DNA of 64,000 nt from a virus: positions 1-64,000 of IMG/VR virus record IMGVR_UViG_3300024518_005299. One strand, written 5' to 3'. The position numbers and the translations under genes were made by a program. Shown in pieces: positions 3,718-64,000 of the stretch (the first letter of the stretch is position 1; each line of letters opens with the position of its first letter). Under the pieces are notes generated by a model that worked only from the letters and a program-made list of their open reading frames with translations, did not search any database and was not told the DNA's origin.

Positions 3718-4337
3718 TCGCCGGAAGTGGCATTAAGTATGCCGATGTAGAAGACCTGGTCGAAACTATCGTATCGATGAAGAAAGCGAAATACTCCTTT
3801 CCAGGGGTTGACGCTGAAGATTTGGCGCAGGACATCCGCTTAGAGTGCTGGAGAGTCCTCAGGTTACACGATCCCGACAAGGAAGGAAAGTCGTTATTCC
3901 ATTTTGTCGCAAGGTGTGTTGATAATTTTCTTTACAATAAGTTTCGCGGAATTTATTTAGACAATAACCCACCTTGTTTACGTTGCCCAGATTATATTAA
4001 AGAAACGAAAACGTGCCGGATCGAAGAGGTAGGTTGCGATCGTATCGTGGCTTACAGAGATAGGATGGCGCGCAAACGCGCTATTGCCGCGCCACTTTCG
4101 TACAACGCGCAACTAGATACTGATGATAGCGTGGACTTTACCCAACACGAGTCGATGAGCGTGGGGTCGACTACTGGTGTTGTGGATCTAGATGACGCTT
4201 TAAGGACTAAGCTAGACGACGCCTTAGTGCCTTACTACGATAATATGATTAATGGAGAGATGCAGTCAGTGCCCGCCCATTACAGGCGGCTGGTGCAACG
4301 ACAGGTTAGGGCGATTATAGAGGAGCAGGGAAAATGA
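3714..4337 (+). CDS. Sigma-factor-like protein (sigma-70 region 2 type)
   Basis: A 207-residue protein. Residues 33-78 read DAEDLAQDIRLECWRVLRLH ... FHFVARCVDNFLYNKFRG, matching the helical pattern of sigma-70 region 2, which binds core RNA polymerase and the -10 element. A cysteine group follows (C88, C91, C101, C108 in NNPPCLRCPDY and beyond), a feature I associate with phage sigma-like proteins. No clear region 4 HTH is visible, so -35 recognition may be absent. There is no strong ribosome site; translation probably couples to the overlapping upstream gene. It is a candidate reader of the TTTAGTGTATAAT boxes, by inference only. Confidence 0.6.
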   Translation: MIAGSGIKYADVEDLVETIVSMKKAKYSFPGVDAEDLAQDIRLECWRVLRLHDPDKEGKSLFHFVARCVDNFLYNKFRGIYLDNNPPCLRCPDYIKETKTCRIEEVGCDRIVAYRDRMARKRAIAAPLSYNAQLDTDDSVDFTQHESMSVGSTTGVVDLDDALRTKLDDALVPYYDNMINGEMQSVPAHYRRLVQRQVRAIIEEQGK

Positions 4338-4906
4338 AGCATTATCATGTCACGCCTTCTGATGAGTATAAGTGCTCATGTGGGAAGGCATTTGAGTCAT
4401 TGTCTGAGATTTGGTCTCATGTAGATAGTCATAGCTATACTGAAGTAACTGACGGCGTGACTAAGTGTCCAGATTGTAAAGGCGCGGCTTACTTGCCCAA
4501 ATTAGAGGGATGTCAAAATGTAGGGCACAAAAATGTGATATGGAGAGCGGATGAGTTAGTTCCCGACGCATTATGGGATGCCCAGCCTGGCCACGCACAT
4601 TATGTTAAGGACGAGGTCCATCTCTTGACTTTAGAACTTTTGCGCCGCGCTCGTAAGATTTTCTTCATGAAGGATGACTGCACACCAGAGAGCATTAATC
4701 ACCTTCTAGATGATATTGATGAGTATTGCCCTCAATTTGTAGAGGATGAACCAGATAAAGACAAAAGGTATGGTTTAGGGGAAGAATTTGAAGAGGCGCT
4801 AAATTTAATTGAAGGCGTAATGTCCGATGAGGTCGTCGGCTTCGCCTGGTATGATGAAGCAAAGAAATTTTTGAAAGAGAACGGGAGGGATGTCGATGAC
4901 TCTTGA
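4334..4906 (+). CDS. Hypothetical zinc-finger protein, 190 aa
   Basis: The N-terminus has C14-x-C16 and H29-x3-H33 (CSCGKAFESLSEIWSHVDSH), a C2H2-like finger, followed by a second pair C45-x2-C48 (CPDCKG). The rest is acidic and helical. It could bind DNA or RNA; the family is not recognised. It overlaps the sigma-like gene by four bases, with an AGGAGCAGGGA ribosome site. Confidence 0.6.
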   Translation: MKHYHVTPSDEYKCSCGKAFESLSEIWSHVDSHSYTEVTDGVTKCPDCKGAAYLPKLEGCQNVGHKNVIWRADELVPDALWDAQPGHAHYVKDEVHLLTLELLRRARKIFFMKDDCTPESINHLLDDIDEYCPQFVEDEPDKDKRYGLGEEFEEALNLIEGVMSDEVVGFAWYDEAKKFLKENGRDVDDS

Positions 4907-44241: not shown

Positions 44242-44877
44242 ATGAGAAAAACACTTCATCAAAAGGATTTAGATTTTTTTCAAACACCTAATGAACTTAA
44301 TTGTTATTGGGCGGGTTTCATAGCGGCTGATGGAAATATCCAGCCTTCTAAAAATACTGTATGCGTTGTGCTTGCAGCAAAAGACAAATGTCATTTGGAA
44401 AAATTAGCAAAAGATATTCAGTATACTGGATCTGTTAAAGACACTATTACTAAACTAAATAATAAATCTTATCCGGGTGCCCGTTTGAGTATTTGTGGCG
44501 CATCTAATATCATCCACGATCTAGAATTGAATTTCAACATCATAGCCAATAAGTCTTTGACCTTACAATCACCCCAACATCTATCTAGAAGATTATCGTT
44601 GGCATTTATTATTGGATATTTTGATGGTGATGGCTCTACTGGAGTATACAAAAGTACAGGTCGTAGAATGGTGTTTTTAGGCACTTACGATATGCTTAGC
44701 TGGATTAAAGTAATATTTGATGAAGAGTTTCCACAACATGTTTATAAAAATCTGCCCACTGTACGTAAACATAAGGGCATATATGAATATGGCGTTTGTG
44801 GTAAAAGGGCAGAGTATATCATGTCCAAATTGCGAGAAATTGATGTGCCTCGTCTGGGAAGAAAGTGGGCTAGATGA
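44242..44877 (+). CDS. LAGLIDADG homing endonuclease 1
   Basis: A 211-residue monomeric-type endonuclease with two motifs: YWAGFIAADG (22-31) and FIIGYFDGDG (about 121-130), whose final acidic residues bind metal. It begins directly at the stop of the adhesin and overlaps the next gene by four bases. No strong ribosome site precedes it. It is AT-rich compared with neighbours. It probably homes between phages lacking it. Confidence 0.85.
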   Translation: MRKTLHQKDLDFFQTPNELNCYWAGFIAADGNIQPSKNTVCVVLAAKDKCHLEKLAKDIQYTGSVKDTITKLNNKSYPGARLSICGASNIIHDLELNFNIIANKSLTLQSPQHLSRRLSLAFIIGYFDGDGSTGVYKSTGRRMVFLGTYDMLSWIKVIFDEEFPQHVYKNLPTVRKHKGIYEYGVCGKRAEYIMSKLREIDVPRLGRKWAR

Positions 44878-54012: not shown

Positions 54013-54790
54013 TAAAAAACATAAGAATGTCCGACATGGACATGCTACAAGAAAGGATGGTACCTCTAAGGAATATAATGCATGGAGAGGTATGATTCAA
54101 CGTTGTACAAATCCCAATGCTACGAAGTATCCGCGCTATGGAGGGCGTGGGATCAAAGTATGTGATCATTGGTTGGGTTCATTTGAGAATTTTTTTGACG
54201 ATCTAGGATTTGCGCCGTCATCAAGTTATTCATTAGACCGTATTGATAATGACGATGATTATAAGCCTGAGAATTGTCGATGGGCGACTGCTAAAGAACA
54301 AGCGCGGAATAGACACAATACAGTAACTTTTAATGGACAGAGTCTTGCTGAATATTGCGAAGAACATGAGTTGAATTATCATACCGTGATGACTCGTATA
54401 CAGAGAGGCTATTCTGTCGAACGTGCTATTTCAATGCCAGTTTATAACAGGATTAGTAAAGGCGCTCAGCATCTTGCTGATATTATCAGAGAAATCTTCC
54501 CACATCAAAAAGTTGTTTGTGAATATAATGTTGCAGATAGGGGATATTTACCATTAGATTTTTTTATTCCAAGCTTAAATATTGCCATGGAATATGACGG
54601 AGAGATGCATACCATTTTTTCACCTCTATATCATGTTGACCGTGCTGGTTTCTTAGCAATGAAAAAGCGAGACTTAGAGAAGGACGAGTTGTGCGAGCAA
54701 AAGGGGATTACTCTAGTGCGTGTGGCATATAGTGAAAATATGAGTAGAGGCTTGGTGTTAGATAAGATAGAGGAAGCGCAAAATGGCTAG
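54005..54790 (+). CDS. Homing endonuclease: HNH-like domain fused to a Vsr/EDxHD-like domain
   Basis: A 261-residue protein starting at GTG inside the recA end. Residues 24-100 follow a phage HNH-like pattern (YNAWRGMIQRCTNPN, YGGRGIKVCDHWLGSFENFF, SLDRIDNDDDYKPENCRWAT), then a NUMOD-like segment (VTFNGQSLAEYCEEHE). Residues 180-235 look like the Vsr/EDxHD fold: LDFFIPSLNIAMEYDGEMHT with D185, E196, D198 and H202, and KKRDLEKDEL ... ITLVRVA. The phage enzyme I-Bth0305I of that fold is also found at recA. Its last codons form AGAGGAAG, the ribosome site of the helicase gene. Confidence 0.7.
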   Translation: MSDKKHKNVRHGHATRKDGTSKEYNAWRGMIQRCTNPNATKYPRYGGRGIKVCDHWLGSFENFFDDLGFAPSSSYSLDRIDNDDDYKPENCRWATAKEQARNRHNTVTFNGQSLAEYCEEHELNYHTVMTRIQRGYSVERAISMPVYNRISKGAQHLADIIREIFPHQKVVCEYNVADRGYLPLDFFIPSLNIAMEYDGEMHTIFSPLYHVDRAGFLAMKKRDLEKDELCEQKGITLVRVAYSENMSRGLVLDKIEEAQNG

Positions 54791-56273
54791 AAATGTTGCC
54801 GCCGAATTTAACTTACTGGCTGGTTTGTGCCGGAACCCAGAGATATTTTTTAATGTCCAACAGCACCTTTCTGCAGATGACTTTACGGAGAAGGTCAATC
54901 AAAAATTCTTCATAGTTTTACAACGGTTACTAATGAACTCCACGGGTGAGTTGGTAGTGACCCAACCTGGATTGTTAGCAGAGGCGGCGTCTTTAGGGTT
55001 TAAGGATTTCTATAAGATTTGCAGAGACGGTGAATTGATCGAGGCATGCCTAGATCATCAATCAACTCCAGCCATCACAGGGCGCGCCTTCTTACACGTT
55101 AAGCGCGAGTCTGTTAAAAGAGGCTATCAATCATATTTCAAACAAAAGCTTAAATATATTGAGGATACGACTGATGATACCAACAGCATCATCGACACTG
55201 TAGACTCTGGGCTAATTGATCTATCTAATAAATTACAAGGCGTAGTAGATGACGAGATCATCCATTTGCCTTCACGCGCTATTGAGATCATTGACGACCT
55301 AGCGGATCATCCGGGCGAGCTTGGTGTTGATATCGGCTTTCCGATTTGGCAACGCGCCACTGGTGGATTGCGCAATGGTACTATTACTTTTCTAGCTGCC
55401 AACGCTAAATCTGGTAAGAGCCAGATTGGGGTTCGTGCCGCAGTTGAGTTATCGCGCTATATGCCGGTGCTTTATTGTGACAGTGAATTGAACGAGATCG
55501 CGCAGGGTGTGCGAGCGTTTGGTATGCATGCTGAAGTGAATTATGAGGTCTTAGAGACTGGCTATTGGAAAGCGGATCATGATAAGATTATCCGCGATGG
55601 CTATAATAAAACCTTTGCTTTACAATGTGGTATCGATCGTCAGACGATCGAGGATGTAGACATTCGAGCAGAGTTTGCTACACGTAAATTGTATTATAAG
55701 CAAATGACTGGCATGACCGCGCGTGAGATACTACCCTTTTTACGTCGTTGGGTCATGCAGCATGTTGGATTGGATAATGATACACGACAAGCTCGTTGTC
55801 TAATTGTTTGGGATTATATTAAGTTGGCTCGAATTGATGAAGTCAAAGCGATGGGGGTAGGTGCTCATGATGTGTTGGGCGACACCTGTATGGCTTTACA
55901 TGATTTTGCTGAAGAGTTTAATCTACCCATCTTGGCGTTTGGACAAACCAATCGTGCTATTGACAAAGACTTTGCGATGATTGCCGGCGCGAAGAAGATT
56001 GTGGAGCTAGTAGATTCTATTAGTTTGTTTCATAAGAAAGACGCTCATGACTTAGTCACATCACCACAAGGAACACACGAGATACACATCTTAGGATCTC
56101 GATACGGTAAGGGCGTGAGCACCCATATTAATGTAGAGGCCGATCTAGGGATCGGGAAGTTCCAAGAGCTGGGCGTGGCTACGCTTGTACAATCAACACC
56201 CGTAACCCCGGCTGTTCCTGTAGGAGGGGCGGTAAAAAATCCGACCACTAGTAAATCTAAAACGAAACCATGA
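54783..56273 (+). CDS. dnaB: DnaB-like replicative helicase
   Basis: A 496-residue hexameric helicase. The N-terminal domain occupies about 1-100; the ATPase domain has Walker A ANAKSGKS (206-213), an acidic ALYCDSELN-type segment (VLYCDSELNE) and Walker B-like RCLIVWDYIKLARID. FGQTNRA matches the DnaB glutamine-sensor region. It unwinds DNA ahead of the polymerase, probably with the primase encoded next. The C-terminus is a disordered Pro/Thr/Lys tail. Overlap of four bases with the next gene suggests coupled expression. Confidence 0.87.
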   Translation: MARNVAAEFNLLAGLCRNPEIFFNVQQHLSADDFTEKVNQKFFIVLQRLLMNSTGELVVTQPGLLAEAASLGFKDFYKICRDGELIEACLDHQSTPAITGRAFLHVKRESVKRGYQSYFKQKLKYIEDTTDDTNSIIDTVDSGLIDLSNKLQGVVDDEIIHLPSRAIEIIDDLADHPGELGVDIGFPIWQRATGGLRNGTITFLAANAKSGKSQIGVRAAVELSRYMPVLYCDSELNEIAQGVRAFGMHAEVNYEVLETGYWKADHDKIIRDGYNKTFALQCGIDRQTIEDVDIRAEFATRKLYYKQMTGMTAREILPFLRRWVMQHVGLDNDTRQARCLIVWDYIKLARIDEVKAMGVGAHDVLGDTCMALHDFAEEFNLPILAFGQTNRAIDKDFAMIAGAKKIVELVDSISLFHKKDAHDLVTSPQGTHEIHILGSRYGKGVSTHINVEADLGIGKFQELGVATLVQSTPVTPAVPVGGAVKNPTTSKSKTKP

Positions 56274-57370
56274 CAATGACAAGAGAGCCATCAAAAGATA
56301 GGTTGACTAAAGAAAAGATTGAGGGCGTGCGTAAATTGGCACATAAAAATATGCGCCTGATTATGAAAAAGCTAAACTTTAGTGGGGATGATTTTGGTAG
56401 TCGTCTTGTAGGATGCTGTCCTATTCCTCACAATAATGGTCAAACGCCTAATGATAATCGCCAAGCATTTAGTTGGGATTTTGACCGACAGATGTGGCAG
56501 TGCTTTACCAATCAGTGCCATCAGATTCACGGGGCGGATATTTTTGCGCTTATTCAATGCGCGAAAGACTGCGGGTTCATTCAGGCCCTGCAGTGGATTC
56601 TAGATGCTATAGAAAAAGACATTGGTGATATTAAAGAACTTGATAATGAAGAGTCTCAACGATTAGAGCAGGTCATTCGTAAACGATCAGAACTTGTTAA
56701 ACATAAGCGTATGGAAGAGGCGTTGATGACTCATCTACAGCCTAGTGCTTATTTTGCTGATCGAGGATTTTCAAAAGAAGTTATTGCGGAATTTAAATGT
56801 GGAGGCGAATGGCACAAATATCAAACCTATGGTGAAGATAGAGTAGTCGTTCCAATTTATGATCCGCTTGATGGATATCTTGTCGCTTTTACATGTCGTA
56901 TATTGGACGACAATAAGATTAATAAATGGCGACCTAAATGGTGTCATACTCTTAATTTCGCAGAGATACGCAAGAGGTCTCAAGATCGCGCTGACGAAGA
57001 AAAATTTCATGCCTCGTCTGTGCTCTATAATCTTTATCGTGCTTCTCAGCATATGGGGGCGTCTAAAACTATCTTTGTAGCTGAAGGCCCCGGGGACGTT
57101 ATGAAGATGTGGGATGCTGGAATTAAGAATGCCGTAGCTGTTCTAGGCACCGGGTTTTCCAAACATCATAGAACACTCTTACATAAGATTGGTTGTCAGC
57201 AAGTAGTCTGCGTTTTTGATAATGACTTAGCTGGACAAAAAGCTAGCAATGTAGTGAAAAAAATGTGTGATAATTATTTTGAATTTAAAAACGTAACTTT
57301 ACGAGAAGGAACAGACCCTGGAAGTCTTCTTCCGATGCAGTTACGTATGGTTTTGAGGGAATATTTATAA
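56270..57370 (+). CDS. dnaG: DnaG-type primase
   Basis: A 366-residue primase. The zinc-binding domain has Cys49/50, His54, Cys78 and Cys83 with CHQIHGADIF, as in CHC2-type fingers. The TOPRIM catalytic domain is IFVAEGPGDVMKMWDAG with the invariant Glu near 272, then CVFDNDLAGQKAS with metal-binding Asp near 316. It makes RNA primers on the lagging strand. It is shorter than cellular DnaG and lacks a clear helicase-binding tail. Confidence 0.87.
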   Translation: MTMTREPSKDRLTKEKIEGVRKLAHKNMRLIMKKLNFSGDDFGSRLVGCCPIPHNNGQTPNDNRQAFSWDFDRQMWQCFTNQCHQIHGADIFALIQCAKDCGFIQALQWILDAIEKDIGDIKELDNEESQRLEQVIRKRSELVKHKRMEEALMTHLQPSAYFADRGFSKEVIAEFKCGGEWHKYQTYGEDRVVVPIYDPLDGYLVAFTCRILDDNKINKWRPKWCHTLNFAEIRKRSQDRADEEKFHASSVLYNLYRASQHMGASKTIFVAEGPGDVMKMWDAGIKNAVAVLGTGFSKHHRTLLHKIGCQQVVCVFDNDLAGQKASNVVKKMCDNYFEFKNVTLREGTDPGSLLPMQLRMVLREYL

Positions 57371-57903
57371 TGAGCGTTTATGAGAAGATGAGGGTGTATT
57401 TTTCCTCACCCTATGAGCATGATCGTGCTGAAACGTCGTGGAAGTCAACAATAGAAAACTTTATGATAAGGAAGTTAGATTGGCGTATTCAAACTATCGA
57501 CCCTTGTTCAGACTTATGTGATGAAGCTAATCTTATTGATGAGATGAAGGCTAACGAAGACTGGTTAGGAGTATATTCGTTTTGTGCAAATATTGTGGAG
57601 AGCGATCTTGCAATGTTGAATCGTTGTGAGGGTATGATCGCATACCTACCCTGTAACGCAAGAACTTTTGGCACTACCCATGAGATTATTTATGCTTTAG
57701 CAAATAATATTCCAGTAGTGATGGTTATGCCAGAAGGGATTGACAAAGTGCCGCATTGGTTATGGGGAATTTTAGGTCCGAATCGCATCTTTGACAATCT
57801 AGAAGAAGCGGCAACGACTTTAGTAAAGAGAATGCAAGTAGCAAGAGGAGAACAAGCAAATGACACAGTTCATTACCCTAAGCGGTCGAGAATTGACTTA
57901 TGA
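57370..57903 (+). CDS. Nucleoside 2-deoxyribosyltransferase-like protein
   Basis: A 177-residue Rossmann-type protein. MRVYFSSPY opens the fold; ESDLAMLNRCEGMIAYLP and FGTTHEIIYALANNIPVVMV match the NDT/DUF4406 pattern, in which the Glu after the GT(x)n turn (near 104) is the catalytic nucleophile. It probably acts in nucleotide salvage or modification. The start overlaps the primase stop; GAGGGAA precedes it. The end overlaps the remnant start of the kinase gene. Confidence 0.65.
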   Translation: MSVYEKMRVYFSSPYEHDRAETSWKSTIENFMIRKLDWRIQTIDPCSDLCDEANLIDEMKANEDWLGVYSFCANIVESDLAMLNRCEGMIAYLPCNARTFGTTHEIIYALANNIPVVMVMPEGIDKVPHWLWGILGPNRIFDNLEEAATTLVKRMQVARGEQANDTVHYPKRSRIDL

Positions 57904-57916
57904 TAGATGTCAGTAA
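57860..57916 (+). pseudogene. Orphaned former 5' end of the dNMP kinase gene
   Basis: AGAGGAG and an ATG at 57860 open an 18-codon frame, MTQFITLSGRELTYDRCQ, that stops inside the LAGLIDADG gene. Its first residues (FITLSGR) match the start of the kinase gene 680 bases downstream (MAKFITLSGKKQTGKD). This looks like the original kinase start, cut off by insertion of the endonuclease gene, with the kinase start regenerated behind it. Confidence 0.65.
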
Positions 57917-58547
57917 ACAAAGATTCAAATATCAACATACCATCCCTATACCGGATCTTGATAGTGAAGCATTTTGTTACTGGTTAGGGTTTATCTTAGC
58001 TGATGGATGTATTACTGATACTGACAGTGGTTCTGATCGTTTTATTATAGGCCTTAAGCAAGATGATAAAGATCATTTAGAAAAGTTACGCAAGTGGTTA
58101 AGATCTAATCATCCAATACGTTATATAAGAAAAACCAAGGCTTATGATTTTAGGATACGATCTCAAGGATTGTGCAATATGCTAGGTGAGTTTGGCGTCA
58201 CCCCTAGAAAGTCACTTACTGCTTGTGTGGACCCTAGATTAAAAAATAATCGCCATTTTTGGCGTGGAATGATTGATGGAGATGGCACTATATTTATTGA
58301 TACTCGTGATAAATTATTTTGTTTTGGCTTGCTCGGTACTGAAAATGTATGTATAGATTTTTGGAATTTTTGTTATGACATTGATTCTACTTTTAATAAG
58401 GTTTCAATTTGCAAACCCCCATGGAATGGATATTCTGTAAGATGTTCTGGAAGAAAAGCTAAAAATATTGCTAGAAAGCTTTACGGAGATTGTAATATTT
58501 ATCTGGATAGAAAGAAAAAATTAGTAGAGGAAAATATTGATGGCTAA
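57900..58547 (+). CDS. LAGLIDADG homing endonuclease 2
   Basis: A 215-residue protein with two catalytic motifs: YWLGFILADG (27-36) and FWRGMIDGDG (about 120-129). It is inserted at codon 10 or so of the dNMP kinase gene, leaving the old start upstream. Its last codons (KKLVEENIDG) contain AGAGG, the ribosome site for the kinase's new start. It is AT-rich. Confidence 0.85.
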   Translation: MIDVSKQRFKYQHTIPIPDLDSEAFCYWLGFILADGCITDTDSGSDRFIIGLKQDDKDHLEKLRKWLRSNHPIRYIRKTKAYDFRIRSQGLCNMLGEFGVTPRKSLTACVDPRLKNNRHFWRGMIDGDGTIFIDTRDKLFCFGLLGTENVCIDFWNFCYDIDSTFNKVSICKPPWNGYSVRCSGRKAKNIARKLYGDCNIYLDRKKKLVEENIDG

Positions 58548-59289
58548 ATTTATTACATTAAGTGGAAAAAAACAGACTGGCAAGGATAGCGCCGCAAAGA
58601 TTATTCGTCAGTACTTAGTAAGTGAGAGCTTTAGTTTTTGTTTAGATAATGAAGGCGTAGTGCGCCTACAAAGCTCCGTAGGTATTGGTCCTTTAGGTGT
58701 GGAGGGGATTAATCGTGTGCACGTTGTGCATTTTGCAGACGCTCTCAAAAAGGCATGCAATATCATTTTTGGTATTCCATTAGAAGACATGGAGACTGAA
58801 GAGGGAAAACAGAAGGTAACACATGTAAAATGGCCATGCAATATGGCATCATATGATATTGATCAGGAGCCGACATGGGTCCCCTCTAGTCGGTATATTG
58901 ATTATTGTCATAAGAATAATCGTGAAATTAATGGTGGCGCTAGCCACATGACCGTTCGCGAGATTCTTCAATTTGTAGGAACTGATCTTCTGAGGAATCA
59001 ACTAGATCCAGATATCTGGGTAGAGTCAGTATTTCGTCAACCATGGAAAGAAGACGATGTTGTGATCATTGCAGATGCACGCTTCCCCAATGAAGCAGAT
59101 ATCGCCCTTCAACATGGGTTGTTGATCAATATTGAACGTGAAACTAATTTGGCGAGTGATGGACATAGGTCCGAAACAGCCTTGAATGATTATGCTGATT
59201 ATCATTATAGTGTGGATAATAATAGCTCTGTGGATGATTTCGTTATGCATTTAAATAATGTGATGTCAGAACAGAATATCTTAACATGA
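58540..59289 (+). CDS. Deoxynucleoside monophosphate kinase
   Basis: A 249-residue P-loop kinase: GKKQTGKDS (9-17). Further matches are HFADALKKACNIIFGI (lid region) and VVIIADARFPNEAD, as in phage dNMP kinases. It supplies dNTP precursors by phosphorylating dNMPs. ATG 58540 is chosen because AGAGGAAAA stands before it; the frame's TTG at 58537 is less likely. The start region is a near copy of the remnant at 57860, so the endonuclease gene has displaced the original start. Confidence 0.75.
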   Translation: MAKFITLSGKKQTGKDSAAKIIRQYLVSESFSFCLDNEGVVRLQSSVGIGPLGVEGINRVHVVHFADALKKACNIIFGIPLEDMETEEGKQKVTHVKWPCNMASYDIDQEPTWVPSSRYIDYCHKNNREINGGASHMTVREILQFVGTDLLRNQLDPDIWVESVFRQPWKEDDVVIIADARFPNEADIALQHGLLINIERETNLASDGHRSETALNDYADYHYSVDNNSSVDDFVMHLNNVMSEQNILT

Positions 59290-60296
59290 AAATACCATAC
59301 GTTTCACCTTCACGCTTAAAGACTGCTGATGCTTGTGAATTTAAATACTTTCTTCATTATATATGGGGGTGGAGCGATGAGCTATTTACTTATACGTTCT
59401 GCAGCGAGTTTGGTAGTGCAGTCCATTACACGCTTGAGGAGTATGCGGAGTCTAAAGGTACGGCTGATTACAAAGCTATCTATCATAAGCATGTAATGGA
59501 CCTAAAGCCTTTTATGAAAGATATGAATAACGCGCCGTCGAAAGCCCGTGGTTCGTTTTTTGTTGAAAAAGATTGTGAGTTTTGTCCATTTTTTGGTGTA
59601 GAAGACGGGACTTGTGGCGTAATGCCTTTTGTTGTTGAGGACATCGTCACCCTATATAATGTTGATGAGTTTGAGGGCTGTCCCAAGAAACTATATAACG
59701 AGGGGCTAGGCATGGTTGAAGATGCCATCGTTCGTTATGGTGAATATTTTGACACAGGTGTTAAAAGCAAGGATAATCCTAACGGTAAGGTAATCGGTAT
59801 TGAGGCTCCTACTAGAAAAGAGGCTGATCCAGAAGGTCCACATATCACGTGGGGTGTTGATAAGGATGATGAGCCCATCAATATGAATGGGTTTATTGAT
59901 CTAGTTGTTGAGTATGATAAGGAAACACTATTAATTATTGATTACAAAACAGGATATTCTGTTCCTGAGTATGAGAAGTTTCTTCAAGACCTTCAGCCTA
60001 GAATGTATTCCTATGCGGCAAAGCGCATGTATCCTCAATATAAATATCACTGGGTGCAGTTTGATTACTTTAGAAGCCTAGTACCTTTAGAGCATGCATT
60101 TACAGATGAAGATGATGAGCTGACGCGGCAATACGTGGTTGAGCTTTATCATAAAATTAAAGATGCGCGCTCAATCAAGCGTCGTGGAGAAGACTGGTAT
60201 TGTAAACATCTATGTAATCGTCCATTCTGTGATCAAAAATGGAAAGAATTATTAAACGGCTTAGACGGCTCTAATCCCAACCCTCCCAAAAGATGA
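59286..60296 (+). CDS. PD-(D/E)XK nuclease of the RecB/Cas4 type
   Basis: A 336-residue exonuclease-like protein. The catalytic residues are H47 (FGSAVHYTLEEY), D205 (GFIDLVVEYD) and D219-x-K221 (LIIDYKTG), followed by the QPRMYSYAAKRMYP motif. Cysteines at 17 and near 306, 310 and 315 (CKHLCNRPFC) resemble the iron-sulphur site of Cas4/AddB; a further CEFCPFF pair lies near 97. It probably processes DNA ends with the recombinase. It overlaps the kinase gene by four bases. Confidence 0.75.
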   Translation: MKIPYVSPSRLKTADACEFKYFLHYIWGWSDELFTYTFCSEFGSAVHYTLEEYAESKGTADYKAIYHKHVMDLKPFMKDMNNAPSKARGSFFVEKDCEFCPFFGVEDGTCGVMPFVVEDIVTLYNVDEFEGCPKKLYNEGLGMVEDAIVRYGEYFDTGVKSKDNPNGKVIGIEAPTRKEADPEGPHITWGVDKDDEPINMNGFIDLVVEYDKETLLIIDYKTGYSVPEYEKFLQDLQPRMYSYAAKRMYPQYKYHWVQFDYFRSLVPLEHAFTDEDDELTRQYVVELYHKIKDARSIKRRGEDWYCKHLCNRPFCDQKWKELLNGLDGSNPNPPKR

Positions 60297-60670
60297 TGGA
60301 AGATCCACGCTGTAAATATTTATGGGGTCAGCCTAAAGATATGACAGTTGATCAAAAATTTAGGTTGTTGTTACGTTTATTGCGTAAATACTTCCCACCA
60401 GATTTCCCTGTGCGTGTTCGTCGTGTGACAAAAGACCTTTTGGGTCCTGACGCTCCTCATGGTATAGTTTGGATGGTAAACGAGGGTAAACCCAATTCGT
60501 ATTATAAAATCCTTATTAATAAAAATTATCCATGGAATTCACAATTTGATACAGTCATGCATGAATGGGCGCATACGCTCACCTGGCATATAGTAGGTAA
60601 TGGTAAAGATCATGGCGACCCCTTTCATCGTTGTTTCGGTAGTTTGTATCGAGCTTTTGTAGAAGATTAA
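60293..60670 (+). CDS. SprT-like zinc metalloprotease
   Basis: A 125-residue protein with the zincin motif HEWAH (90-94, HExxH) inside FDTVMHEWAHTLTWH, and a third ligand likely H107 (GKDHGDPFH). Domain size and layout suit SprT-like metallopeptidases. It may remove proteins linked to DNA. ATGs at 60293 and 60296 are both possible; no strong ribosome site is visible. Confidence 0.65.
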   Translation: MMEDPRCKYLWGQPKDMTVDQKFRLLLRLLRKYFPPDFPVRVRRVTKDLLGPDAPHGIVWMVNEGKPNSYYKILINKNYPWNSQFDTVMHEWAHTLTWHIVGNGKDHGDPFHRCFGSLYRAFVED

Positions 60671-60673
60671 AAA

Positions 60674-61060
60674 ATGATTTATAACTTTCAATGTAGGACT
60701 TGCCAAGCAGATCTAGAAGTGATATTTGCCGCTAGTGAATATGATAATAAGGTAACTGCGGATAACAGGCTCAAGCGTAAAAAATGTGAGAAATGCAACT
60801 CGATTTCGTTTTATCGACACATAATAGAGGCACCAAGCGTCTTGGGTGGAAATAAAGGTTACGTGAGTATGGAGCGCTGGCAACAGAATAATCCAGACCA
60901 CGCCAAAAAACACGAAGAAGAACTTAAAAACAAAATGGAAGACCGTCATCGTAAGCGCGTGCTTAATAAGATCAACAAGCAGATAGGCGGCGACCGGAGC
61001 GAGGATAGGCATAAGGATTATGGTAGCGGCAAGGAAGAAAAGTTAGACTCTAATGATTAG
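60674..61060 (+). CDS. FmdB-like zinc-ribbon protein
   Basis: A 128-residue protein with two Cys pairs: MIYNFQCRTCQADLEV and KKCEKCNSISFYR, as in FmdB-type zinc ribbons. The C-terminal half is charged and helical (KKHEEELKNKMEDRHRKRVL). Role unknown; possibly nucleic-acid binding. The C-terminal DNA (GGCAAGGAAGAAAA) acts as the ribosome site of the next gene and reappears at 61354. Confidence 0.6.
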   Translation: MIYNFQCRTCQADLEVIFAASEYDNKVTADNRLKRKKCEKCNSISFYRHIIEAPSVLGGNKGYVSMERWQQNNPDHAKKHEEELKNKMEDRHRKRVLNKINKQIGGDRSEDRHKDYGSGKEEKLDSND

Positions 61061-61340
61061 GACTCAAGAATCTCTTGATGAGCTACTGCAGTCGTGTGAA
61101 TATGCCGCTTACGTTGACCACGCGATAGGCTCACACAACCCTCATATGCTTTGGACTATTCTTGGTGATCTGCGCTACAATCTATTATGGATTATCATGC
61201 GTGATGATACTAATGAATTATTCATTGAATGTATTATGCCTACGGTCTCTCCATTAAACGTAGACGGAATTCATATGGATGACGCACAACTCGTGCAAGA
61301 ACATAGCGATTATATGTTTGATAAATATAAGAATAAGTGA
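61053..61340 (+). CDS. Hypothetical protein, 95 aa
   Basis: It begins MIRTQESLDELLQSCEYAAY, with start overlapping the zinc-ribbon gene. A middle segment is hydrophobic and aromatic (MLWTILGDLRYNLLWIIMRD), which could be buried or membrane-associated. No family is recognised. Confidence 0.55.
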   Translation: MIRTQESLDELLQSCEYAAYVDHAIGSHNPHMLWTILGDLRYNLLWIIMRDDTNELFIECIMPTVSPLNVDGIHMDDAQLVQEHSDYMFDKYKNK

Positions 61341-61353
61341 ATAATATGGCGAA

Positions 61354-61395
61354 GGCAAGGAAGAAAAATTGAGCGACCAAAGTGATGGTATATAA
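61354..61395 (+). pseudogene. Possible orphaned leader and start of the polymerase gene
   Basis: GGCAAGGAAGAAAA (14 bases identical to 61028-61041) precedes TTG AGC GAC CAA, which reads MSDQ and stops after 8 codons. The polymerase gene starts MSDKKMAH at 61992, behind the endonuclease. It is a weaker parallel to the kinase remnant. Confidence 0.3.
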
Positions 61396-61999
61396 TTATA
61401 ATAAACATTACTTTGATAATATTGATTCGGCTGAAAAGGCTTATTGGTTGGGCTTTCTTTGGGCTGACGGATGTCTTTTTAATAGCAAGACTCATCCTAA
61501 ACATGTTATTTTTTCACTTCATAAAAAAGATAGATTGTCTATTAAGACGCTTTTAAATGCGCTCGAATCTAATCATCCAATTCGTACTCAGAAAAATAAA
61601 TATGATCGTGTAGAATTTTACGGTGCAGATTTTTATGATTCTCTTTTTCAAAAAGGATTTGAACCCCGTAAGTCTAAGTTAAATAGGATACCAAAATTTC
61701 CCTCAAGATATGATTTTGATTTTATAAGAGGCGTTTTTGATGGTGATGGATGTGTTTATTATCATCAAGCTCGCAATCAAACCTGTGTTGAAATAGCTGG
61801 TAATTTTAAAATAGTTGATTATATTTTAAACGTTATGCAGTTCGGCACATGTTCTCGTATGTCTTTGAAAGGTACTTGGCGTTGGAGGGCTTCTGGTAAT
61901 CAGGTAGCTAAAAGATTCGCACAAAACATTTATTATGATAATAATATAATATGTATGAAAAGAAAACGTGAAAAATTTAAGAGGTTTATTAATGTCTGA
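61385..61999 (+). CDS. LAGLIDADG homing endonuclease 3
   Basis: A 204-residue protein: motifs YWLGFLWADG (20-29) and FIRGVFDGDG (about 112-121). It is related to endonuclease 2 in layout. It lies directly before the DNA polymerase gene, overlaps its start by eight bases, and its last codons (KFKRFINV) form AAGAGG, the ribosome site of that gene. The GTG at 61382 is an alternative start. It is AT-rich. Confidence 0.83.
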   Translation: MVYNYNKHYFDNIDSAEKAYWLGFLWADGCLFNSKTHPKHVIFSLHKKDRLSIKTLLNALESNHPIRTQKNKYDRVEFYGADFYDSLFQKGFEPRKSKLNRIPKFPSRYDFDFIRGVFDGDGCVYYHQARNQTCVEIAGNFKIVDYILNVMQFGTCSRMSLKGTWRWRASGNQVAKRFAQNIYYDNNIICMKRKREKFKRFINV

Positions 62000-64000
62000 C
62001 AAAAAAATGGCGCATTTACATTGTCATACCCGTCATTCTTTTTTAGATGGTCAATCTTCTATAAAAAAATTGGTTGCTAGAGTAAAAGAATTAGGGATGG
62101 AGTCTTTGGCGGTTACCAACCATGGTAATATATTTTGCTGTGTTGAGTTTTATCAAGAGTGTAAAAAGGTAGGCATCAAACCCATCATGGGTATGGAAGC
62201 CTATCTTACTGATGATCACGCGAATAAAACTAGGCATGCTCATCACCTTATTCTACTAGCTGAGAATGAGATTGGTTGGAATAATATTGTACGATTGACA
62301 ACTAGAGCTAATGAAAACACTTATTACAAGCCCCGAATTGACTTTAAGGATCTAGCTGAACATAAAGAAGGATTGATTGTTCTCACAGCTTGTATGGCTG
62401 GCCCTGTATCATATTGGTTATTTGATAAGATGACGTGGGCAAAACCAGGTGAGGAGTCTGTACTAAAAGAGGCAGCCAATATACCAAAAGCCTACGAATA
62501 CTTGAGAGAGCTAGTAAAGATAATTGATTCAGACAACCTCTTCTTAGAAGTGCAAGATGGAGGTATTCCAGAGCAGCTTATTATTAATGACCGACTGCGT
62601 AAAATGGCAGCAGAATTTAATCTACCAGTAGTAGCAACCCAAGACTCCCATTACGTATATAAAGAAGATGCTGCGGCGCACGGTTTTTTAAAGGCAATAG
62701 CGTGGGGTAAGGCTGGAGTTCCAGCAGGAGAGAGTGGATTCTCGACCGAAGAATTCTACATTAAGTCTAGAGAGGAATGGCTGGAGGGCTCGGATCTTAC
62801 CGAAGCAGAAGTGGATAAGACGCATGAGATTGCTTCTAGATGCAATGTTACACTACCACTTCATCAGATGCGACTACCCAAATATCCCACTACAGACCCA
62901 CGCCCTTCTATTGAAATACTAAAAGAGAGGGCGCGCAAGGGTTGGACGCGTCGTAAAATTGAGGATAAGAATGAAGTATATGCCAAACGAGCTAAGCATG
63001 AGCTGGCTGATATTGAGCAAGCCGGTCTGGCTGATTATTTTCTTATTGTTTCTGATATTACGGACTATTGTCGTGATAATGACATTCTGCTTAGCCCCAG
63101 TCGTGGCAGTGCTGGGGGCAGTCTTATCAGTTTTCTCCTCGGGATCACACAGCTAGACCCTATTCAGTATGATTTGATTTGGGAGCGATTCTATAACGCT
63201 GGGCGTATTGGCTCGATGCCAGATATTGATACTGACGTGGAGAAGAGCCGCCGTGACGAAGTCATTGAATATATCCGCAAACGCTTTGGAGAAAAGAGAG
63301 TGGCGCAAATCGTTACCCTCTCTTCTCTAGGTGCTAAACAAGTAGTACGTGATGTTTTTAAAGTCGCGGGTGTTGATGAAAATACCAAGAATATCATAGC
63401 TGGATTGATACCAGCTAAGAATGATGACCATACTTCCATTAGCTTGGCAGAAGCCATTAAGGCAGTTCCCAAGCTTAAAGAGTATGCGGAGGATGATGAC
63501 AAGTTTGACATTAAAAGGTATGGAAGGGTTATTCGAACAACGTCCTGGAGGGAGCTGTTTGACATCGCCCAACGTTTAGAGGGGTGCTATAAGACTTCTG
63601 GGGTGCATGCCGCTGCAGTTGTTATTGCCGATGATGATTTTGATAATGCTGGTATACCTTTGGTAAGAGCGAAGGGTGAAGATAATAAGCCAAAAATGAT
63701 CTGTGGATGGGACATGGATACCATTGATACTTTTGGGTTGTTGAAGGTGGATATGTTAGGGCTCGCTACTCTAGATGTTCTTAGGTCTGCCCTTGCAATG
63801 ATCAAGGCTCGTCACGTAGAGCATGCGGATATGCCTAAACCTCAAGAGTTTTTGAATAATTTAAAGCTAGATGATAAGAAAGTTTTTGAGGTACTACTAC
63901 ATGGTCATACTCAAGGGGTTTTTCAACTAGAATCGAACTTAGGTAAGTCATGGTCTAAGAAATGTAAACCAACTAATATTGAAGAGATTGCAGAATTGAC
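61992..64000 (+). CDS. dnaE: DNA polymerase III alpha subunit (C-family), partial
   Basis: 669 codons are visible before the window ends. The PHP domain opens MSDKKMAHLHCHTRHSFLDG with metal-site histidines H8, H10 and H12. The palm has MPDIDTDVEKSRRDEVIEYI with acidic residues at 411, 413 and 415, then GEKRVAQIVTLSSLGAKQVV. This is a C-family replicase, as in bacterial DnaE, here carried by a phage. The ATG at 61992 follows AAGAGG in the endonuclease gene. Confidence 0.9.
   Translation, partial: MSDKKMAHLHCHTRHSFLDGQSSIKKLVARVKELGMESLAVTNHGNIFCCVEFYQECKKVGIKPIMGMEAYLTDDHANKTRHAHHLILLAENEIGWNNIVRLTTRANENTYYKPRIDFKDLAEHKEGLIVLTACMAGPVSYWLFDKMTWAKPGEESVLKEAANIPKAYEYLRELVKIIDSDNLFLEVQDGGIPEQLIINDRLRKMAAEFNLPVVATQDSHYVYKEDAAAHGFLKAIAWGKAGVPAGESGFSTEEFYIKSREEWLEGSDLTEAEVDKTHEIASRCNVTLPLHQMRLPKYPTTDPRPSIEILKERARKGWTRRKIEDKNEVYAKRAKHELADIEQAGLADYFLIVSDITDYCRDNDILLSPSRGSAGGSLISFLLGITQLDPIQYDLIWERFYNAGRIGSMPDIDTDVEKSRRDEVIEYIRKRFGEKRVAQIVTLSSLGAKQVVRDVFKVAGVDENTKNIIAGLIPAKNDDHTSISLAEAIKAVPKLKEYAEDDDKFDIKRYGRVIRTTSWRELFDIAQRLEGCYKTSGVHAAAVVIADDDFDNAGIPLVRAKGEDNKPKMICGWDMDTIDTFGLLKVDMLGLATLDVLRSALAMIKARHVEHADMPKPQEFLNNLKLDDKKVFEVLLHGHTQGVFQLESNLGKSWSKKCKPTNIEEIAEL

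Follow-up and report, generated by a model that had tools for sequence, protein, structure and literature searches.

Homing endonuclease genes (HEGs) that interrupt a gene and replace one of its ends have been described in fungal mitochondria. In the mORF hybrids (Allomyces macrogynus atp6; Glomus atp6, atp9, cox2, and nad3) an intron-less HEG lies in the gene, and a foreign 3' end, with largely synonymous differences, takes the place of the native end, which is left beside the element (PMC3630166). In the phage ShiLan, an HNH HEG is inserted in a DNA methylase gene; the insertion opens with 11 residues similar to the 11 that follow the site, the DNA identity being lower (66-68%), a likeness left unexplained by the authors, who considered it a possible intron signature (PMC11855218). 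In T4-type insertions (mobE/nrdA of Aeh1, mobA/gene 60) the interrupted gene remains in two pieces whose products assemble (PMC2988022). According to a 2026 preprint, free-standing HEGs are largely limited to intergenic sites, avoiding the disruption of host genes (PMC13405050).

We analyzed a 64,000-nucleotide stretch of viral DNA (the window, hereafter W), positions 1 to 64,000 of the IMG/VR record IMGVR_UViG_3300024518_005299, which comprises 131,680 bases (131.7 kb). In W, an intron-less HEG is flanked by two copies of the start of a kinase gene, alike in protein but different in DNA. As in the fungal mORF hybrids, the HEG is inserted in a gene whose severed end is replaced; however, while the hybrids concern the 3' end of mitochondrial genes, W concerns the 5' end of a phage gene and does not strictly meet that description. 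The replaced part is only 11-12 codons long, and it includes a new start codon with a ribosome site at the end of the HEG. The Streptomyces phage Jada, described below, is the closer, 3'-end match to the mORF kind. With ShiLan, W shares the insertion of a phage HEG at a conserved coding site, but in ShiLan the methylase frame continues across the insertion, with the HEG out of frame (PMC11855218). With the T4-type insertions it shares a free-standing HEG inside an important gene; in W, however, the gene is restored as a whole and the fragment discarded (PMC2988022). In the open-access literature searched (subscription journals were not covered), no description was found of a carried 5' gene end, or of an end-replacing arrangement in phages. 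Within that literature the 5'-end phage version of gene-end replacement therefore appears new, the mORF kind being already known.

Table 1. Coordinates of the features at the kinase locus of W and of the kinase-start copies in the related contig L007.
Feature	Position	Strand	Remarks
NDRT (nucleoside 2-deoxyribosyltransferase-like) gene	57370..57903	+	PF05014 below cut-off, E=1e-4
AGGAG, Shine-Dalgarno site for the old start	57846..57850	+	nine bases before ATG 57860
Native kinase start left stranded, MTQFITLSGR (codons 1-10)	57860..57889	+	matches position of intact L074 kinase start
Intact LAGLIDADG HEG, 215 aa, two motifs	57900..58547	+	PF14528, PF00961
First LAGLIDADG motif, YWLGFILADGCI	57978..58013	+	D35 invariant in 11 aligned HEGs
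Second LAGLIDADG motif, FWRGMIDGDGTI	58257..58292	+	D126, D128, G129 invariant in 11 aligned HEGs
AGAGGA, Shine-Dalgarno site for the new start, within the last HEG codons	58526..58531	+	GAGGAAAATATTNATG conserved in L007
New kinase start in a different spelling, MAKFITLSGKKQ (codons 1-12)	58540..58575	+	third positions 10/11 identical to L007 new start; AT-rich, as is the HEG
Deoxynucleoside monophosphate kinase, complete, P-loop GKKQTGKD	58540..59289	+	PF21448, E=5e-16
L007 kinase-start copies	3901-3933 and 4001-4033		

The ATG at 57860 opens MTQFITLSGRELTYDRCQ in a reading frame of 18 codons (stop at 57914-57916), preceded by the AGAGGAGAA ribosome site that is common to the old-position starts of W and of two relatives, L007 and L074. 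The NDRT reading frame spans this stranded start and terminates at a TGA overlapping the start of the HEG (ATGA, 57900-57903), and the HEG stop in turn overlaps the new kinase start by 8 nt. The kinase at 58540 begins MAKFITLSGKKQTGKD (MAKFITLSGK). The original prediction had claimed a short-lived start with a good ribosome site at 57860, a kinase start running into the P-loop at 58540, and two starts alike in protein but not in DNA; all three claims held, and the DNA it quoted (CAGTTCATTACCCTAAGC versus AAATTTATTACATTAAGT) was exact. Old and new start agree in 7 of 10 residues but in only 19 of 30 nucleotides, and five of the six degenerate codons differ. We scanned about 271,000 ten-codon positions on both strands and in all frames of the 131.7-kb record for matches to the kinase start. 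Apart from the self-match (BLOSUM62 score 48), the sequence at 57860 scored highest (37; next best 31), and it sits upstream, in the same direction and with its own ribosome site.

The HEG is an intact LAGLIDADG homing endonuclease, as judged from its motifs and predicted fold; that it cleaves a specific site is inferred. The two LAGLIDADG helices with their acidic residues and the alpha-beta fold are present, as judged from the motif alignment and an AlphaFold model (pLDDT 89.8), and the best PDB folds were I-Tsp061I, I-AniI, and I-DmoI. These share the two-motif monomeric fold with the W enzyme but are intron-encoded, while the W enzyme is found without an intron. A search of positions 54700-63000 against Rfam (E<=1) gave no match and revealed no intron RNA core enclosing the HEG. 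The old start, the HEG, and the kinase each occupy a different frame, while an intein would require a single one. The intron and intein readings were rejected on these grounds.

No close relatives of W were found in GenBank, and a DNA search of the GenBank phages with the W region gave no match. Relatives free of the HEG were found in IMG/VR by patterns derived from the kinase. The contig L074 has the gene order of W (helicase, primase, NDRT, kinase, Cas4-like nuclease) without the HEG, and its NDRT passes directly into an unbroken kinase (MPRFITLAGRKQVGKD). The kinase starts at the 57860 position, with the same register, AGAGGAGAA ribosome site, and NDRT overlap as in W, and continues into KQVGKD; the sequence at 57860 is therefore the native kinase start. 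This is what the original prediction had expected of an uninterrupted relative, namely a kinase running from the 57860-type start straight on into its P-loop. The end of the NDRT lies inside the kinase start in L074, while in W and L007 the insertion supplies a new end. The 60 nt upstream of the L074 kinase match the old start of W at 44 positions and the new start at 28. Over the first 30 nt of the kinase itself the values are 21 and 15, although against other, more distant relatives they are nearly equal. As the L074 kinase is only 44% identical to that of W and no closer uninterrupted relative is known, the exact ancestral site in W remains unseen.

In a second set of relatives (the L050 group, L051, L054, L070, and L079), a HAD-like phosphatase, so named from its sequence motifs alone, replaces the NDRT, and the kinases are intact. 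These HAD-type kinases begin with MVKF, MPKF, MAKF, or MARF (L070, MAKFITLAGR), and their native starts resemble the one at 58540, with ATGNYTARR and an upstream stop overlapping by 8 nt as in W. The original prediction had stated that it would be refuted by an uninterrupted relative with a 58540-like start and nothing like 57860 in the same place. Such starts do exist without the HEG, but since a HAD gene rather than an NDRT lies upstream, L070 does not represent the same place. The relatives first obtained from the kinase search (L002-L006) were set aside as too distant and carrying long N-terminal extensions. Scans based on the NDRT returned only the L007 contig.

L007 shares the gene order of W and contains both kinase starts, around a HEG that is internally deleted and dead. 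The first codons of the remnant (GTG ATT AAT ATA AGT CAA CAA) are joined out of frame to its last (TAT TTA GAT CGA AAA AAG AAA TTT GTT GAG GAA AAT ATT). The 10-residue kinase-start peptide recurs identically 100 bp upstream of the kinase start. Both starts read MTRFITLAGKK (11/11 residues), yet only 24 of 33 nucleotides agree; all differences are synonymous, with seven of ten degenerate codons changed. L007 represents a relic, in which the endonuclease is dead and the gene retains the new start. At residue 8 of the kinase start, the two W copies have S and the two L007 copies have A. The L007 new start equals its own old start at every residue, a likeness not explained by a simply imported start. 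W and L007 also share an identical stretch of 35 bases at about 57748-57800, 60-110 bp before the old start (NDRT codons 127-139, third positions 11/11). It may be a co-conversion tract or the result of local constraint.

The kinases of W and L007 are 55% identical overall, with about half of the third positions identical (0.49). Over codons 1-11 of the new start, however, the agreement at third positions is 10/11; it drops to 4/11 at codon 13 and to 1/11 at codon 19. The similarity breaks at codon 11-12, and the old start is cut off at codon 10-12. The two new starts match each other at 25 of 30 nucleotides, while old and new start match at 19/30 within W and 22/30 within L007. As the helicase start of W and L007 likewise scores 10/11, constraint on gene starts may contribute to the third-position signal. 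Third-position GC in W was 0.09 in the new-start codons, 0.35 in the rest of the kinase, and 0.23 in the HEG, although the AT-richness of gene starts may have other causes. In gene trees of the helicase (100/98) and the Cas4-like nuclease (91/96), W grouped with the HAD-type phages, whereas the kinase tree, which has long branches, placed it with L007 (98/99). This conflict is consistent with transfer of this segment. From the double start beside a dead HEG in L007, the break at codon 11-12, and the mirror case in Jada, we infer, with strong support, that the new start arrived and travels with the HEG, as the original prediction had proposed.

We screened 87 loci with related HEGs for duplicated flanks at the protein level, using swapped flanks as the null (99% level 38, maximum 45); with ten further named or environmental phage records the total came to 97 LAGLIDADG loci. 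W scored 41, above the 99% level, and two further cases, Jada (L083) and L099, exceeded the null maximum. No such duplication was found in the ten further records, and most of the annotated HEGs among them are located in genes whose division resembles that caused by introns. A further locus with a score of 41 (L101) was rejected, as its match appears to be low-complexity, GC-rich sequence.

In Jada the duplicated sequence is a 3' gene end. On the 5' side of the HEG it reads GTC AGA GGG TAT TGG TTG TGG CAA AGT CGT AGG AAT ACC CCA GAA ATG GGC TCT TAG, and on the 3' side GTG CGT GGC TAC TGG TAT TGG CAG TCA CGT CGT AAT AGC CCG GAG ATG GGG TCA TGA. The insertion point is exact, at a codon boundary after ...ATTTTGATGGAA. 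The end of the intact gp204 (NADAR domain) of phage Gilson is identical to the stranded end of Jada at all 57 positions and to the rewritten end at only 37 of 57, so that here the stranded copy is clearly the one nearer to the uninterrupted relative. The rewritten end preserves the meaning of 17 of 19 codons, and 12 of its 14 degenerate codons differ, compared with 25-27% between the gp204 genes of related phages; close relatives vary far less than the rewritten spelling departs from them. The body of the Jada NADAR gene was later lost by a deletion, a 10-base repeat recombination that fused the gene to the preceding one at AAGCTCGGTG, and the rescued gene is therefore no longer whole. Streptomyces phage Forrest (L166), 99% identical, was considered as the empty site of Jada and rejected, as it carries a deletion and is not an ancestor; Gilson is the right comparison. 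The Forrest deletion connects a small gene, the same as that involved in Jada, with sequence beyond the HEG. In L099, a segment of the active site of a metallophosphatase (IIFLGDYFDDFSDT) recurs before the HEG as LIYLGRYVDDFGDS, so that the segment is present on both sides; no phage relative of this phosphatase was found.

The double start, its correspondence to an uninterrupted site, the intact enzyme fold, the anatomy of L007, and the mirror case in Jada are shown. In each of W, L007, and Jada the native end is left stranded and the rewritten end runs without a break into the working gene; the end concerned is the 5' one in W and L007 and the 3' one in Jada, and the HEG is intact apart from L007. 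We consider it likely that, as a whole, these loci reflect a mobile unit consisting of an intron-less LAGLIDADG gene and a replacement for the gene end severed by its insertion. In this view, the enzyme would cut HEG-free kinase genes near codons 10-12, at the P-loop, and donor-templated repair would insert the cassette at the cut. The native first 10-11 codons would be left stranded upstream, and the 11-12 codons of the cassette, spelled differently for nearly the same peptide and served by a ribosome site in the last HEG codons, would restore an intact kinase. That the enzyme cuts at the kinase-start junction is inferred with moderate confidence. The insertion would part the two halves of the site; an exact copy of the gene end would rejoin them, while a different spelling would not. 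Since an exact copy of the start beside the P-loop would form the site anew, the different spelling may shield the donor from its own enzyme. This idea, also part of the original prediction, is no more than plausible. For W, a spelling selected for this purpose cannot be distinguished from one taken ready-made from a distant kinase. Among the observations that speak against the mechanism, simple import does not predict that old and new starts agree at residue 8 within each genome (A/A, S/S), and the HAD-type native starts resemble the one at 58540, including the 8-nt stop overlap.

The latter observation is the basis of the most serious alternative, in which 58540 is a resident HAD-type kinase start and a block of NDRT, broken start, and HEG recombined in upstream from an NDRT-type phage, so that the start was never carried by the HEG. 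Besides the shared ATGNYTARR and stop overlap, the grouping of the W helicase and Cas4-like genes with HAD-type phages favors it. However, the resemblance between W and L007 breaks at codon 11-12 of the kinase, the cut point of the old start, and not at the ATG; the kinase itself places W with L007; and in Jada the insertion, which begins exactly between two codons, includes the rewritten end. We therefore regard this alternative as unlikely. Even less probable is a duplication of the old start, made on or before insertion, with later drift. The starts are indeed alike in protein, and identical in L007, but an unselected old copy should decay, while FITL(S/A)G(R/K) persists in W and L007; most degenerate codons (5/6 and 7/10) differ; the new starts of W and L007 are closer to each other than to their own old starts; and in Jada the stranded copy is unchanged.

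Two further alternatives can be almost entirely dismissed. The pieces might be joined by a group I intron, an intein, or ribosome bypass, with 57860 still the true start, and many relatives of this HEG family do reside in introns of phage genes. Against this, Rfam gave no match, the HEG occupies the whole space between the pieces, these lie in different frames, and the downstream frame, judged from its sequence, encodes the entire kinase, P-loop included, with its own start and ribosome site; by the same judgement, function does not require both gene pieces. Alternatively, the short frame at 57860, with its good ribosome site and stop, might be an independent leader or small gene resembling the kinase by chance, but it is the best match in the whole record, recurs in L007, and occupies the position of the L074 kinase start.

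Under the mobile-cassette explanation, W, L007, and Jada are HEG insertions into coding sequence in phages that manage without splicing, by way of a replaced gene end. We lean, though not strongly, towards a bolder reading, in which some intron-less phage HEGs carry a rewritten 5' or 3' end that makes the gene whole again and abolishes the cut site. This would be a third route beside introns and inteins, leaving a scar that can outlast the HEG, as in L007, and a natural counterpart of engineered home-and-rescue gene drives, in which a homing nuclease targets an essential gene and carries its rescue (PMC7968924). Those drives are engineered in Drosophila with Cas9 and compare with W in logic only (PMC7968924), but W may serve as a natural example beside such designs. 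The reading provides a testable rule, that in the carried end the protein is preserved but the cut site is not; since both Jada and Gilson are isolates, the rule is open to testing at the bench. Gene-end replacement would account for gene starts and ends that occur as strays in phage genomes, and may account for the 11-residue likeness in ShiLan (PMC11855218).

Further LAGLIDADG sequences were observed in W and its relatives. A third LAGLIDADG gene of the window (44242-44877) lies between two tail-region genes, its ATG abutting the upstream stop (TAAATG) and its end overlapping the next gene; no duplicated flank was seen there. L033 has a LAGLIDADG gene (3974-4615) that extends into the start of a thymidylate-kinase-like P-loop gene, with no stranded start visible, and in the distant relative L003 (3694-4680) a LAGLIDADG-like segment lies in frame inside the NDRT, without evident intein splice motifs. 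The second LAGLIDADG gene of W, at 61382-61999 (window 61343-61999), adjoins and overlaps the start of the DNA polymerase III alpha gene (61993); L007 lacks this second gene at that place. An old DnaE start before this second HEG was looked for, and no convincing one was found. The tail of an FmdB-like gene is copied just before it (YGEGKEEKLSDQSD versus YGSGKEEKLDSND at 61021-61060), with a small reading frame between. Two more LAGLIDADG domains lie outside the window (record positions 69107-69340 and 96281-96748) in long reading frames of 1014 and 719 aa and are probably inteins.
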